Source: Paenibacillus silviterrae (GTDB lineage Bacteria > Bacillota > Bacilli > Paenibacillales > NBRC-103111). Taken from it: 64,000 nucleotides of DNA. Where the stretch lies: NCBI RefSeq assembly GCF_030167925.1, contig NZ_JASKUT010000001.1:2666001-2730000 (forward strand), in the 5' to 3' direction. Position 1 is the first letter of the stretch. Each line of letters begins with the position of its first letter. Of this stretch, positions 48,972 to 53,422 are shown one piece after another. The position numbers were made by a program, and so were the translations under genes. The notes under the pieces were generated by a model. That model was not told where the DNA came from. It made no database searches and saw only the letters and a program-made list of their open reading frames with translations.

Positions 48972-49018
48972 AAGTGTGTTTCGACACACTTTTGCATATT
49001 GTGACAGTCATGCATGAC
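48972..49018. promoter_or_regulatory. Inverted repeats upstream of the GH44-SLH operon
   Basis: A perfect 8-bp stem AAGTGTGT/ACACACTT with TTCG loop (48972-48991) and a 12-bp palindrome GTCATGCATGAC (49007-49018), within 105-150 bp of the GH44 start. They could be operators; no clear promoter could be fixed. Confidence 0.4.
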
Positions 49019-49058
49019 ACGGTCACGGGTAATGATAGTCATTAGGTCCCGTACAAAA

Positions 49059-49094
49059 AAACATCCCTCCAGCGCTATGGCCAAAGGGATGTTT
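49059..49094 (-). terminator. Terminator after the DUF2383 gene
   Basis: ACATCCCT/AGGGATGT stem followed by a seven-base T-run on the minus strand. Confidence 0.75.
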
Positions 49095-49110
49095 GGAGAG
49101 ATGCTTGAAT

Positions 49111-49548
49111 TTATACGATGTGTTTTTCCAGCTGCTTGATATGGTTTTCTGCGGATTGGCGGATACGTTCGATCAGCTTGCGGCTTGTATCATCCAGCTC
49201 CTGCTGAAGCAGCTTCTCCGATTGCTCGATGCCCATGCGCTCGCCTTTTATCGCTTCTTGGATGAGCTCGGCCGTTTCTTCGCTTACGCCTTTCCATTTG
49301 TTGCTGATCGTGCCTGCAATCGAATCAATAAGTCCGGGTCCGTCCGCGGCGGTTCCGTTTAAATTCTGGATGCGTTCCGCCAGATCGGCTGCTTCCTTCT
49401 TATGGCTTTGCTGAATCTCCTGAAAGGCCCGCTTTACTTCAGGGCTCTTCACATGCTGGATGTACGTCTCATAGCTATGTACTCCCATATAGACACCCTT
49501 CAAATAATCGTTAAGCATCGTAACGGTTTTGTCCTTCGTCGCTTGCAT
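49111..49548 (-). CDS. DUF2383/ferritin-like four-helix protein
   Basis: 145 residues, all-helical (TVTMLNDYLKGVYMGVHSYETYIQHV, EIQQSHKKEAADLAERIQNLNG, LIQEAIKGERMGIEQSEKLLQ, LIERIRQSAENHIKQLEKHI). The spacing of helices and His/Glu residues fits DUF2383 (PA2169-like). Function unknown, sometimes spore- or stress-related in Bacillales. Single gene with terminator. Confidence 0.75.
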   Translation of the reverse strand: MQATKDKTVTMLNDYLKGVYMGVHSYETYIQHVKSPEVKRAFQEIQQSHKKEAADLAERIQNLNGTAADGPGLIDSIAGTISNKWKGVSEETAELIQEAIKGERMGIEQSEKLLQQELDDTSRKLIERIRQSAENHIKQLEKHIV

Positions 49549-49649
49549 GCTGCCAGCCCCTTCCGTTGTAGTCTCCCGTAGTATTTGGGAACATACGTCA
49601 CATTATTCCTCTTGAAGGCCGGCTCGGCAGCTTAAGCGACTATGCTATG

Positions 49650-50381
49650 CTACGTGAACAGGTAGCTGATGTAAATCATGAGCAGGAGACCGAACATAAA
49701 GGAATAGGTCGAGGGGCGTTCATAGCCGTGGCCGTGGCTTTCCGGGATCAGTTCCTTATAGACGATGAACAGCATGGCGCCAGCCGCGAAGGCGAGTCCG
49801 TACCCGACAAGCGGCTGAATGGAGTTTGCCGTGAAGTAGCCGACGACGGCAGATACCATTTCCATAAGGCCGGTCAGCGTGACGATGAGGAACGATTTCC
49901 ATTTTGTCACGTTTGAGTTCAGCAGGAAGACGCCTAGCACCAGCCCCTCCGGCATATTCTGCGCTCCTATAGAGATGGCGACCATCGGCCCCAAGCTCTC
50001 GTTCTGGCTTGCGTAGCTGAATCCGGTGCTGAGTCCCTCCGGTATATTATGAATAAAAAGAGCGATGATGACGAGCAGCGATTTCGCATGGAACTGGCTG
50101 ACGCCCGAATCATTCTCAACGTCGATATGGGGGATATTCTTCTCGATCCTGTCCAGTACGACGAAGCCTAATATGAAACCGACGGATAGTGCGAAGATAC
50201 CCTCTTCCTTAATCGCCTGCGGCATCAGTCCGAAGGTACTCGCGGCAACCATAATGCCCGCCGTAAAGGCGATGAGTACGTCCTTCCACTTCTCGGATAG
50301 CTTCTTGACGAATAGCAGCGGTACAGCGCCCATCACCGTGGCCATCGCCGATACGAAGCTGCCCAGCAGTGCTGTCTCCAT
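49650..50381 (-). CDS. ZIP-family metal transporter
   Basis: 243 residues, about eight membrane helices. ZIP signature HNIPEGLSTGFSYA in helix 4 and SIGAQNMPEGLVLGVFL in helix 5, both with the metal-binding residues kept; GYGLAFAAGAMLFIVYKELIPESHGHG near the end, with a His-rich loop. Probably takes up zinc or another divalent cation. On the minus strand, TATAAT lies about 35 bp upstream, next to a TGCATATGCA palindrome. Confidence 0.92.
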   Translation of the reverse strand: METALLGSFVSAMATVMGAVPLLFVKKLSEKWKDVLIAFTAGIMVAASTFGLMPQAIKEEGIFALSVGFILGFVVLDRIEKNIPHIDVENDSGVSQFHAKSLLVIIALFIHNIPEGLSTGFSYASQNESLGPMVAISIGAQNMPEGLVLGVFLLNSNVTKWKSFLIVTLTGLMEMVSAVVGYFTANSIQPLVGYGLAFAAGAMLFIVYKELIPESHGHGYERPSTYSFMFGLLLMIYISYLFT

Positions 50382-50487
50382 AGGAACCTCCTCTGGTCTA
50401 TGATGGTAAGGGTATTATACCATAATTATGCATATGCAAGCTCCGGGAGAACGGGAAGCGCCTAGGCGTAAATTTGCGGCACATCCG

Positions 50488-51015
50488 ACGGTTTCTGGCA
50501 CTCCAGCCGCACTCCTGCCACTACTGTGCACTCTCGCGTCCCATCAGTCGCTCAACACGGCATGCAGTGGCACTTTCGCCACTATTTCCGTGGTTTCACG
50601 CACTCTCGCCGCTTCCAGTCCCATTTCTGCTACTACCGTGCACTTACGTGTCCCATCAGTCGCTCAACACGGCATGCAGTGGCACTTTCGCCACTATTTC
50701 CGCGGTTTCACGTACTCCAGCCGCTTTCAATCGCACTTTTGCCATTATCGTGCACTCACGCGTCCCATCAGCCGCTCTACACGGCATGCAGTGGCACTTT
50801 TGCCACTATTTCCGCGGTTTCACGCACTCTCGTTGCTTCCAGTCGCATTTCTGCTACTACCGTGCACTTACGTGTCCCATCAGCCGCTTAACACGACATG
50901 CAGTGGCACTTTCGCCACTATTTCCGCGGTTTCACGCTCTCTCGCTGCTTCCAATCGCATTTCTGCCACTATTGGGCACTCAAGCCTCCCGCCAGCCGCT
51001 CAACACGGCATGGAG
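50488..51015. repeat. 112-bp tandem repeat array, four full copies plus partial ends
   Basis: Full units start at 50561, 50673, 50785 and 50897 (CATGCAGTGGCAC...), exactly 112 bp apart; a degenerate partial copy precedes (50488-50560) and only the first bases of a further unit remain at 51009. Each unit has an AGTGGC/GCCACT hairpin. Units 1 and 3 share variants not found in 2, and unit 2 shares variants with the 5' partial copy, so the array seems to have grown as 224-bp pairs. All three plus-strand frames are nearly open through it; these frames are not genes. Confidence 0.9.
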
Positions 51016-51040
51016 TTTAGTAGCGGTCCCTCTTTACCTC

Positions 51041-51069
51041 TTGTAAAATAATCACAAATGTAGTAATAT
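51041..51069 (+). promoter_or_regulatory. Promoter between the 112-bp array and the nuclease gene
   Basis: TTGTAA (51041-51046), a 17-bp spacer, TAATAT (51064-51069). A transcript from here would first meet the hairpin at 51098. Confidence 0.55.
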
Positions 51070-51097
51070 TGAACACATATATTAGGCAGTGAAGCAC

Positions 51098-51145
51098 ACG
51101 CCGCTCTACCCAAACGTAATCGTTTTGTGGTGAGCGGCGTTTTTA
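51098..51145 (+). terminator. Strong terminator in the leader of the nuclease gene (possible attenuator)
   Basis: ACGCCGCTC (51098-51106) pairs with GAGCGGCGT (51132-51140), with an inner AAACG/CGTTT stem, then TTTTATTT. It ends only ~25 bp before the start codon of the gene at 51170 and ~30-70 bp after the promoter, so it may act as an attenuator or end a short RNA. Confidence 0.75.
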
Positions 51146-51169
51146 TTTGACCAGGGGAGGTATGAAGCC

Positions 51170-51850
51170 ATGTCAACGTTCGAAACGGCCCATGCTCAGT
51201 GGCTAGCAGCGCATCAAACAGCTCGCGCGGGAGAGAGACTTCGCCGACTGGTGGAGGGGCACAGCCATGCGGAGCAGCTATTCCTAGAACAGGTGTGGTA
51301 TCCCATCTTTCAGCATTTGGAGGATCTGCATCCGGAGTACGAAGTGGTCGATTACAAGGAGGGCACACGCTTCCTGGATTTCGCCTTTCTTCGTGCGCCG
51401 ATTCGGTTAGCGATTGAAATCGATGGATACGGCCCCCATCTATCGAAGATCAGCCGGTGGCAATTTTCCGATCAGCTCATGCGGCAGAACAGCCTCATCA
51501 TCGAAGGCTGGCAAATCCTAAGGTTCTCCTACGACGATGTGAAGGAACGCCCCAAGCTATGTCAACAGCAGCTGCTTCAGCTGATGGGAAGACGCATGGC
51601 TCAGCGCGGCAGCACCACAACTACAAGGCTGAACCCCACGGAGAAAGAGATTATCCTCCATGCCTTGGACAAGAAAAAAGACCTCCGGGCAAGCGACATC
51701 ATGTCGCTGCTGGAGGTCAGTCGATACAAAGCTTGCCGCATCCTTAGGAAGCTGCATCACAAAAACATTCTGCGGCCAAAAGGGACCGGAGCCAAGCGAA
51801 TCCATCGCTATCAGATAAACATCGATCAGCTTTCTGACTACACTCTATAG
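51170..51850 (+). CDS. PD-(D/E)XK (DUF559-like) nuclease domain fused to a winged helix
   Basis: 226 residues. Middle domain (about 40-150) follows the DUF559/Vsr-like PD-(D/E)XK pattern: E in HAEQLFLEQVWYP, D in TRFLDFAFLRAP, ExD in LAIEIDGYGPH, then RQNSLIIEGWQILRFSYDDV. The C-terminal ~70 residues form a winged helix (TEKEIILHALDKKKDLRASDIMSLLEVSRYKACRILRKLHHKNIL). Likely a DNA-binding nuclease; target unknown. GGGGAGG before the ATG. Preceded by promoter, terminator-like leader and the 112-bp array. Its end overlaps the convergent DUF6526-like gene by 13 bp. Confidence 0.75.
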   Translation: MSTFETAHAQWLAAHQTARAGERLRRLVEGHSHAEQLFLEQVWYPIFQHLEDLHPEYEVVDYKEGTRFLDFAFLRAPIRLAIEIDGYGPHLSKISRWQFSDQLMRQNSLIIEGWQILRFSYDDVKERPKLCQQQLLQLMGRRMAQRGSTTTTRLNPTEKEIILHALDKKKDLRASDIMSLLEVSRYKACRILRKLHHKNILRPKGTGAKRIHRYQINIDQLSDYTL

Positions 51851-52278
51851 TAGTCGCCTCTCCAGCTCTTAATGAGTTTCTTGATGTCGCCCGGCGACAG
51901 CTGCTCTTTCACTGCCTTGTCACAAAGAGCCGGAAACTCCTGATCGCTTGCGAAACGTAGAGCAATCAGCTGTTTCAGTGTAATACGGGAATCCAGCCAC
52001 TGCCCCGTCAATCGGAAGTACCGTAAATTCTCTTCGGTCCGGATCAAACGGTCCTGCACTTTTACACCGAATGACCGGGACAACGGGATAAGCAGCATCA
52101 CCATCACGGACAATCCGACAATCACTAACGGCTCTAGCAGCCGATCCCCGCTCCTCAAGCTTCCTAGAGCATACACAAGGGACGCAATCGCAACGATGAG
52201 GCCTAACGGCATGAGAAAATAATGCACCACCGGCACGATCTGACGATGATTCGCGTAGTTCTGATTTGGCTGACTCAT
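51838..52278 (-). CDS. DUF6526-like small membrane protein
   Basis: 146 residues from MSQPNQNYANH (52278; GAGAGG upstream). Two membrane helices (VHYFLMPLGLIVAIASLVYALG; LLEPLVIVGLSVMVMLLIPLS) followed by a cytoplasmic helical part (KVQDRLIRTEENLRYFRLTGQWLDSRITLKQLIALRFASDQEFPAL). This pattern fits the DUF6526 family, function unknown. It follows the ABC permease by 28 bp and may be in its operon. Confidence 0.7.
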   Translation of the reverse strand: MSQPNQNYANHRQIVPVVHYFLMPLGLIVAIASLVYALGSLRSGDRLLEPLVIVGLSVMVMLLIPLSRSFGVKVQDRLIRTEENLRYFRLTGQWLDSRITLKQLIALRFASDQEFPALCDKAVKEQLSPGDIKKLIKSWRGDYYRV

Positions 52279-52306
52279 GAATAATCCTCTCCCCAACTAG
52301 AATGTA

Positions 52307-53422
52307 TTATTCCCATTTAAAGGACAAGCTCGCAATAATAAAAGCAACCGCCATCCAGCCGCCGAGCAGCGCCGCTTCGGGCCAGAGGGTAGTCAAATCC
52401 GCCCCTACGTTCATCACTTGACGGAGCGAGCCCGACAGATGGGTGATCGGCAGCAGCTTTACAACAGGCTGGAGCAGCTCCGGCATATTCTTCACCGGGA
52501 AAAATACGCCTCCGAGGAACAGCAGCGGGAACGAGATGAAGCCCGCAATCGGCCCTGCGCTCTCCGGCGTCTTGGCAAGCCCGGCTACAATGAAGCCGAT
52601 GGACATGAAGGTCAGCGTGCCGAGCACGACGAACAGGATCAATAGCCACCAGGAGCCGTTCACCTGCGTATCGAAAAACAGGTAACCCACTAGAAGCACC
52701 GCAATGGCCTGAAAACCGTTCATAATTAAACGAGATGTAATTTGTGCCGCGATGAACGTGGAGGCCTTCAGCGTGGTCGACTGCATCCTGCGCAGAATCC
52801 CCCGTTCCCGCCACGCGGCAATTTGCCCGGCAACACCGTTCAGGTTGTTGGACATAATCATCATCGCCACAATGCCCGGAACGAGGAAATCGATATATTT
52901 CAAGTTAATCGATTGAATCCCCTTCGGCTGAACAGTAACCCACTGCTTGTACTGAGTGAGCTGCTTGCTCACGTTATCCGCGGCCGTCTGGACGAGCTGC
53001 ACCCCGAGCTGGGAATTGGTCATGTTCGTTTCGTCATAATAGACCGTGACCTGAGCCTCTTTCGCCGTCCCCGCAGCGGCCCCTGCCTTCACCGTCGCGA
53101 CGGCATCTCCATATCCCTTCGGGATGACCACAACGAGCTGGCGGTCGCCCTTCTTCAGCTCATCCAAAGCCGCATCATCGTTCTCCAGCATCGTCACATC
53201 CAGCACCAGCTGAGCCTTCAACGATTCGATAAACTGGGAGGACGCTGCGCTGCGGTCCTGATCAATTAATGCCGTTGACAGCTGCACCCCGCCGCCGTTG
53301 CCCAGAAACGAGCCCAGCGCAACCATCAGCACGATTGGAAACACAAGGGTAAAAAACAGGAACGACCGGTTCCGGGAAAAAATGCGCAGCTGCGCCATCG
53401 TAAGCTGTATATATGCTCTCAT
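52307..53422 (-). CDS. ABC-2 type permease
   Basis: 371 residues, ABC-2 family: one N-terminal helix (SFLFFTLVFPIVLMVALGSFLG), a large extracytoplasmic domain (~45-180), then five helices (VPGIVAMMIMSNNLNG..., FIVAGLAKTPESAGPIAGFISFPLLFLGGVFFPVKNMP, final AALLGGWMAVAFIIASLSF). Partner of the ATPase at 53419, overlapping it by 4 bp. Exporter of drugs, peptides or lipids; substrate unknown. Confidence 0.9.
   Translation of the reverse strand: MRAYIQLTMAQLRIFSRNRSFLFFTLVFPIVLMVALGSFLGNGGGVQLSTALIDQDRSAASSQFIESLKAQLVLDVTMLENDDAALDELKKGDRQLVVVIPKGYGDAVATVKAGAAAGTAKEAQVTVYYDETNMTNSQLGVQLVQTAADNVSKQLTQYKQWVTVQPKGIQSINLKYIDFLVPGIVAMMIMSNNLNGVAGQIAAWRERGILRRMQSTTLKASTFIAAQITSRLIMNGFQAIAVLLVGYLFFDTQVNGSWWLLILFVVLGTLTFMSIGFIVAGLAKTPESAGPIAGFISFPLLFLGGVFFPVKNMPELLQPVVKLLPITHLSGSLRQVMNVGADLTTLWPEAALLGGWMAVAFIIASLSFKWE

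Follow-up and report, generated by a model that had tools for sequence, protein, structure and literature searches.

A Bacillales family of PD-(D/E)XK-like winged-helix genes tends to adjoin its own phased, dispersed palindromes and, in Paenibacillus and near kin, follows a conserved RNA-like leader

Introduction

A gene for a putative DNA-cutting, DNA-binding protein that stands beside an array of repeated palindromes, behind its own promoter and a terminator-like hairpin, raises the question of whether enzyme, repeats and leader belong together, and what such an assembly would do. We addressed this question for one such locus in the window, a stretch of 64,000 nucleotides from the 7.4-Mb genome of Paenibacillus silviterrae (G000). 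The original prediction, made from the letters of the window, had likened the locus to repeat-linked nucleases or transposases such as RAYT/REP.

Results

The locus in the window

The palindromes of the window array share the core AGTGGC-N6-GCCACT or a variant of it, and follow one another at centre-to-centre distances of 112, 51, 61, 51 and 61 bp, the 112-bp unit being the sum of 51 and 61 (Table 1). The array is flanked by a minus-strand gene for a ZIP-like transporter and by the nuclease-winged-helix gene, whose open reading frame is as originally described, as are the promoter and the long hairpin with its T-run ahead of the start codon. Folding of the RNA at 51076-51149 gave -27.3 kcal/mol (z -4.26), and 0 of 200 shuffles were equally low. 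A generic scan of the window, which accepted promoters from 9/12 upward (the window's has 8/12) and terminator loops of up to 8, reported neither the leader promoter nor the leader terminator, so that the case for both is a comparative one.

Table 1. Features of the array, leader and gene in the window
Feature	Position	Strand	Details
112-bp tandem array	50508..51016	.	period 112, 4.5 copies
Five palindromes of one type in the array	starts 50565, 50677, 50729, 50789, 50901		
Sigma-70-like promoter TTGTAA-17-TAATAT	51041..51069	+	8/12; TTGTAA 51041-51046, TAATAT 51064-51069, 17-bp spacer; position conserved in homologues
Leader 5′ mini-hairpin AGUG-AAGCA-CACG	51088..51100	+	3 bp in the window; family-wide covarying stem, AAGNA loop
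Intrinsic-terminator-like hairpin and T-tract	51098..51148	+	stem arms 51098-51114 and 51124-51140, T-run 51140-51148; overlaps 3′ arm of the mini-hairpin
Shine-Dalgarno-like AGGGGAGG	51153..51160	+	from sequence
Nuclease-winged-helix gene	51170..51850	+	226 aa; PD-(D/E)XK-like about aa 33-137, wHTH about aa 156-216

A chromosomal family of putative nucleases

By its sequence, the window protein is a member of a chromosomal Bacillales family that joins a PD-(D/E)XK-like domain to a C-terminal winged helix (wHTH). A protein search found the family in 19 of 25 genomes of the window's genus, and eight Paenibacillus genomes hold 4-11 family places each; G000 has five places besides the window's, two of which adjoin and are apparent pieces of one frameshifted gene. 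At a G000 paralogue (L037), inspection by eye shows two copies of the nuclease gene's 3′ end with adjoining DNA, in the manner of a tandem duplication. From a contig collection, at least 554 stretches were confirmed and the best 80 of them kept as loci, 40 from Paenibacillus and near kin (Cohnella, Fontibacillus and two bins) and 40 others, mostly Bacillaceae. This grouping is our own, and it counts Ammoniphilus (L122, L144), placed by NCBI in the Paenibacillaceae, Aneurinibacillus group, among the others. In a sample of the phylum, 7 of 299 genomes matched at 1e-15, and the family therefore looks narrow; three of the seven match over just part of far longer open frames (754-766 aa), and the other four are the genome of the window, a pair from its order and a small, distant one. 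Assignment to a defence system was rejected, as PADLOC gave weak matches over the wHTH part only and NCBIfam likewise. The same holds for an origin as a phage or plasmid gene, given the lack of phage matches and a single plasmid-listed replicon, of 2.7 Mb, from Paenibacillus.

The family proteins probably bind and cut DNA. The nuclease assignment draws on weak Pfam matches, on DUF559 in 34 of 41 members, on invariant residues and on weak fold matches. The window protein itself scored 22.2 bits against MTES_1575 (cut-off 38.2) and 17.9 bits against DUF559 (cut-off 20.6), both weak matches, and among 41 family members, at E ≤ 0.01, DUF559 was matched in 34 and MTES_1575 in 31, with HTH models matched as well. 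All 41 members have E35, D70, E83, D85 and H90, a conserved acidic active-site pattern. Among divergent paralogues, E35 and D85 are replaced in L021, L023 and L033, and the IEID motif reads IEIQ (L021, L033), IEIM (L023) or IEIK (L035); given the altered IEID and the loss of E35 in the former three, some of these paralogues may be catalytically dead. AlphaFold2, run on 41 sequences, predicted an N-terminal alpha/beta domain followed by the C-terminal winged helix (pLDDT 84.4, pTM 0.60). Foldseek with this predicted structure returned nothing at E ≤ 0.001, its best, weak matches being the Bax1 endonuclease (E 0.003), MarR/ArsR proteins and NGO0050 (3hrl; probability 1.00, E 0.02). VIA-align confirms the wHTH with Z of 8-9, the aligned rows covering the wHTH half alone.

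Arrays adjoin the gene, mainly on its 3′ side

We compared self-BLAST windows beside the gene with others at the same loci, each allowed no more than 250 bp of other coding sequence. Tandem repeats within 450 bp 3′ of the gene were found in 33 of 69 homologues, compared with 1 of 60 other genes (Fisher p 2e-10; loci of related species are non-independent, so that p-values overstate independence). On the 5′ side, enrichment is not established (4/65 homologues, 1/53 other genes). A stricter count, of recurring exact 12-mers, gave 10 of 155 adjacent regions and 1 of 158 other regions. In the 600 bp that follow the gene, self-similar DNA accounts for 29%, against 2.3% farther out (45/79 and 10/72 loci); on the 5′ side, the corresponding shares are 6.4% and 3.0% (18/80 and 19/78 loci). 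With 3′ arrays far commoner than 5′ ones, the window's own 5′ array represents the rarer arrangement, for which L080, L087, L306 and L310 provide the other clear cases. An array went undetected in about half of the homologues. The results dispose of the possibility, raised along with the original prediction, that homologues never lie near such repeats, and the arrays have a spacing rule in common.

Palindromes differ in sequence and agree in geometry

The repeats are palindromes of about 21 bp, often of the form TA(N17)TA; in the dominant palindromes of 54 loci, TA stands in both arms in 29 and in at least one arm in 42. Paralogues within a genome can carry unlike palindromes, as in P. oryzisoli (G033), where they read TAGTGATG-T5-CATCACTA, TAACGCCCATTTGGGCCGTTA and TAAGTCGATAAAATCGACTTA. 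A single repeat common to all homologues was thus rejected, geometry alone being shared, and the question posed with the original prediction, whether homologues stand beside the same repeats, has a positive answer for palindromic repeats as a kind and a negative one for a single repeat, because the paralogues carry different ones.

Palindrome similarity follows protein identity, with a Mantel r of 0.633 over 54 loci (0/2000) and of 0.403 over the 33 loci of Paenibacillus and kin (0/2000), and its mean is 0.43-0.44 below 50% protein identity and 0.71 above 75%. Common descent at orthologous sites accounts for part of this co-segregation of palindrome and protein. In a set of paralogues, the nearest we have to a fresh test, with two of its nine positive loci previously seen, at least three copies of one palindrome were present at 9 of 20 loci and in 0 of 60 shuffles, which preserve base content only.

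Neighbouring similar palindromes, in the flanks of the gene as well as in dispersed arrays, lie at distances that cluster at 41, 51, 61-62 and 112-113 bp; 41, 51 and 62 bp are about 4, 5 and 6 helical turns, and the distances are independent of the palindrome sequence. Such neighbours occur at 22 of the 40 loci from Paenibacillus and kin, at 17 of the 40 others and in 0 of 160 shuffled flanks, shuffled again with base content alone preserved. In three sets, 53/58, 25/26 and 106/108 of the distances between 30 and 75 bp fell within the three spacing classes, distances from the same array being non-independent. The best period was 10.4, 9.9 and 10.6 bp, respectively, where the middle set has two classes only and most spacings come from the first and third. 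With one count per cluster, the modal spacing was 41, 50-52, 61-62 or 112 in 19 of 22 clusters (46 loci), the exceptions being 69, 108 and 128. One geometry across unlike arrays would be expected if adjacent palindromes were bound by the protein on a single face of the helix.

Palindromes are dispersed, and some arrays are present in one species and absent in relatives

In G000, TAGTGGC-N6-GCCACTA with at most two mismatches occurs at 58 forward places, compared with 46 for the reversed control, so that the evidence for its dispersal is the spacing and not the count. Among the 50 forward places listed, 37 fall into ten clusters, the window's and nine further ones of the same palindrome, in which inner distances are all 51, 61 or 111-113 bp. 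Clusters L003 and L004 and the place L002 have the palindrome in common and not the spacer; the same is true of six P. oryzisoli arrays, in which the palindrome is common and the spacer array-specific. A concatenated query gave from at least 8 to at least 67 matches in each of eight Paenibacillus genomes, mostly to the genome's own segment. Among the matches listed, gene-side repeats matched DNA away from the gene (on other contigs or far off) in seven of these eight genomes, and in G038 all matches listed adjoin the gene.

In Bacillaceae, the unit is an element of about 190 bp with four palindromes that directly follows the stop codon. Five of eight genomes hold from 12 to at least 40 matches to it and three hold 1-2, and family genes number 1-2 in each of the seven among them that were searched. 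The gene-side element is closest to copies from its own genome in Bacillus timonensis and Peribacillus kribbensis (77.5 and 76.5%, compared with 68.6-73.0%), and is not closer to them in Neobacillus mesonae (72.6%, compared with 73.1 and 77.5%). In N. mesonae (G028, L203-L222), the four-palindrome module lies inside two kinds of dispersed IS-like MITE, which could move its copies; one kind measures about 358 bp with GGCTSTTTTC ends, as seen by eye, and the other about 640 bp.

Some arrays are present in one species and absent from the corresponding site in another. For six P. oryzisoli arrays, the joined flanks were searched for in three relatives, and three sites were examined closely. At L244, 790 bp separate the flanks in P. 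oryzisoli and 35, 34 and 43 bp in the relatives. At L246, P. oryzisoli has 980 bp between the flanks and P. qinlingensis 33 bp; the remaining two relatives, with 86 and 104 bp, retain a single half-palindrome together with some of the spacer, which may represent either a seed or what is left of a former array. At L243, 565 bp in P. oryzisoli compare with 74 and 93 bp in relatives, and in P. plantarum the flanks enclose 368 bp, including repeats built on another palindrome. In Bacillaceae, one of six queried sites was clearly empty, with 7-14 bp between the flanks in six relatives and about 110 bp of the query's flank missing too. Of 18 dispersed arrays fetched, 16 were callable, and for 10 of these a terminator-like hairpin lies no farther than about 120 bp to one side; in random paired windows at the same loci, the count was 30 of 108.

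A leader with a covarying mini-hairpin

In Paenibacillus and near kin, nearly all homologues are preceded by one layout, which runs promoter, GUGAAGCACACGCCG, stem-loop, U-tract, Shine-Dalgarno and start codon. A rule-based scan, whose thresholds, like those for the palindromes, were chosen once the pattern was known, found this leader at 38 of the 40 loci of this group (13/800 shuffles) and at 0 of the 40 homologues outside it (12/800 shuffles); the two misses were L123, where a hairpin is visible by eye, and L148. A promoter-like pair of at least 8/12 stands at the expected stretch before 29 of 41 leaders, against 13.5% of shuffles that preserve base content alone. Promoter and hairpin, as predicted from the window, thus gain comparative support. 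Of 43 leader candidates, L031 and L022 were dropped because the T-run rule of the script missed both; the anchors of leader alignment A3 were picked by eye, and L112 was omitted from A4.

The mini-hairpin is a conserved word of the leader, with a 4-bp stem around an AAGNA loop. Its stem occurs as CGUG/CACG, UGUG/CACA, CGUA/UACG, GGCG/CGCC, GACG/CGUC and UGCG/CGUA. Over 40 distinct sequences, 93.1% of stem cells are paired, compared with 79.8% in shuffles, and 21 double changes compare with 4.2 in shuffles and at most 6 when the stem is slid; two further measures of covariation are weak, namely double-change pairs (reached by 13/500 shuffles) and further pair types (88/500). On this comparative sequence evidence, the leader is conserved and RNA-like. 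A covariance model applied to 25 genomes gave at least 40 leader matches at E ≤ 1e-4, with 150 of about 800-1900 candidates scored per genome, so that leaders can be missed, as that of L028 was. Among the 40, 30 lie directly before a family gene or a decayed copy, 8 lack an intact family gene and 2, in other contexts, look false. Of the orphan leaders, L311 is accompanied by a gene remnant of 25 residues (tblastn) and L312 perhaps by a few codons (by eye).

At E values up to 5, Rfam placed no family at the leader in window positions 49000-53000, where a weak snoRNA match lies elsewhere, and at its gathering cut-off it placed none at the leaders of related loci from 20 sources; within these stretches, the leader is an RNA motif that Rfam does not recognise. 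A leader peptide (GTG AAG CAC ACG CCG), considered by eye, was dropped, given that neither a consistent start nor a consistent Shine-Dalgarno was seen and that the stem changes track pairing.

Upstream of a P. oryzisoli gene, positions 2070-2156 of L078 match the BsrC sRNA of Rfam with 72 bits. The leaders of L070 (G002) and L074 (G008) are very similar, G002 having, by eye, a MerR-like gene next to it and no nuclease gene. At the G000 paralogue L035, an upstream repeat of period 62 (1748-1830) contains (A/G)TG-AAGCA-CAT, the loop of the mini-hairpin, maybe by chance. Upstream of Bacillaceae homologues (L102, L106, L107, L125, L129, L141 and L150), up to about 300-380 bp are conserved across genera, ending near GACCATTRGATAGGAGG ahead of the start codon.

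Discussion

Given that members of this nuclease family tend to adjoin their own phased, dispersed palindromes, the proteins may make or use these repeats. In the explanation that best covers the whole, to which we assign a probability of about 0.55, the wHTH binds its own palindrome, the nuclease drives growth and spread of the arrays, and the gene is kept at low expression. We infer that the wHTH, probably as a dimer, would bind its palindrome of about 21 bp as duplex DNA, and that the whole-turn spacing (41/51/62 bp) would set several dimers on one face of the helix, while the nuclease domain would nick or cut near the palindromes thus occupied. Staggered cuts whole turns apart, followed by fill-in repair, would duplicate the palindrome together with a fixed length of neighbouring DNA, leading to arrays of constant period with local spacers, and new sites would be seeded occasionally. 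Duplication of a palindrome plus fixed local DNA would be expected to leave arrays whose period and palindrome stay constant and whose spacers are particular to each array, as observed; this step is a model fitted to the pattern. The more specific proposal of a new repeat-generating class, a wHTH-guided PD-(D/E)XK “duplicase” with phased 41/51/62/112-bp arrays and separate paralogue specificities in each genome, is tentative, and we put it somewhat short of even odds.

In Paenibacillus and near kin, the gene's own promoter followed by the mini-hairpin and the terminator would keep the gene low, and the leader is probably an expression brake. By the precedent of IS elements, low expression through attenuation or shielding appears the likeliest role. 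That the terminator just shields the nuclease from outside transcription, with the mini-hairpin aiding folding or pausing, comes close to an even chance: according to one account (PMC2965389), terminators ahead of transposases act as “mobile attenuators” and hold IS expression down, but stem pairs that change round a near-constant AAGNA loop suggest recognition by something.

The main rival to array-making by the nuclease holds that the proteins bind palindromes for regulation or chromosome organisation, like parS sites or silencing clusters, with a nuclease fold that is structural or rarely used and arrays that arise by slippage or unequal recombination. Palindromic sites of about 21 bp in helical phase suit duplex binding by wHTH dimers, and the absence of catalytic residues from some paralogues fits as well. 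Against this stand the five residues invariant in 41 members, and slippage alone explains neither units of 51/62 bp at unlike loci nor arrays at new sites; we regard this rival as unlikely, if the strongest on this point. Somewhat less probable still is that the RNA of about 65-75 nt ending at the terminator is a functional sRNA, for example an antitoxin, with readthrough yielding the protein in a type III-like manner. The order of promoter, structured RNA, terminator and gene would suit such an RNA, as would the AAGNA loop with its covarying stem and the eight leaders without an intact family gene, but the leader lacks tandem RNA repeats, the rule-based scan found it before none of the 40 homologues outside Paenibacillus and near kin, and the orphan leaders may be mere remnants. 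Moreover, the loop is common to paralogues 27-51% identical to the window protein, a pattern that points to one shared factor more than to cognate pairs; the leader may still be an RNA partner of the protein. The view that the arrays are ordinary terminators, REPs or MITEs, at gene ends that merely tolerate insertions, is disfavoured and improbable, since the terminator-like hairpins near dispersed arrays and the MITE-borne module of N. mesonae are outweighed by the enrichment beside the gene, the co-segregation of palindrome and protein, and the paralogue-specific palindromes within one genome.

Preferring array-making by the nuclease, we note that position, co-segregation of sequence and a helix-phased spacing rule together tie a nuclease family to palindromes of Bacillales. 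The open-access literature, searched by titles and abstracts with subscription papers and preprints left aside, gave no link of this nuclease-wHTH family to palindromes and named no enzyme as a partner of Bacillales palindromic repeats. Should the nuclease prove to build the arrays, locus-specific tandem duplication would have a natural source in it, and the family would amount to a large collection of nucleases that bind palindromes, several specificities being available in each genome. How palindromic repeats of bacteria originate can thereby be tested directly.

Among known systems, type III toxin-antitoxin loci have tandem RNA repeats upstream of the toxin gene, with a terminator between; the present leader has a terminator, but consists of a single mini-hairpin and that terminator without repeats. 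CRISPR arrays carry unique spacers between their repeats, and spacers within each of the six P. oryzisoli arrays are copies of one another. The family resembles DUF559/MTES_1575 proteins in its weak Pfam matches, its E..D..ExD..H residues and the Foldseek match to NGO0050, and differs in that the window protein falls under the Pfam cut-offs and that a C-terminal wHTH, a conserved leader and cognate palindromes are added. As with the 5′ terminators of IS elements, a terminator stands ahead of a mobile-element-like gene; unlike them, the leader has a covarying AAGNA mini-hairpin near its 5′ end that is common to divergent paralogues.

RAYTs are Y1 (HUH) tyrosine transposases. No Y1 transposase model was found in Pfam scans of the window protein (E ≤ 1) or of the 41 members (E ≤ 0.01). 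REP palindromes bear a GTAG or CGTC tag at one end. A search for GTAG, CTAC, CGTC or GACG no more than 8 bp from the palindrome, with a fixed position in 60% of copies, gave nothing at 18 of 19 loci; at the remaining one, L079, CGTC/GACG lies inside the palindrome. RAYT (TnpA-REP) genes are flanked by dispersed short palindromes in repeat-specific pairs, and REPs lie mostly downstream of coding regions (PMC3733652). The same source lists bcr1, a dispersed non-coding Bacillus repeat, as a MITE; from such elements, the present palindrome arrays, which are not defined by terminal repeats, are set apart by description only. Membership in the RAYT/REPtron family was rejected, its defining enzyme and tag both being absent, and the present system further differs in its TA(N17)TA palindromes, 41/51/62-bp spacing, array-specific spacers and Bacillales hosts. 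The analogy drawn in the original prediction nonetheless extends beyond the window: as in RAYT/REP, the gene of a chromosomal, putatively DNA-processing enzyme is matched to palindromes dispersed through the genome, and if the nuclease makes these arrays, it would represent a second, independent invention of a RAYT-like partnership.
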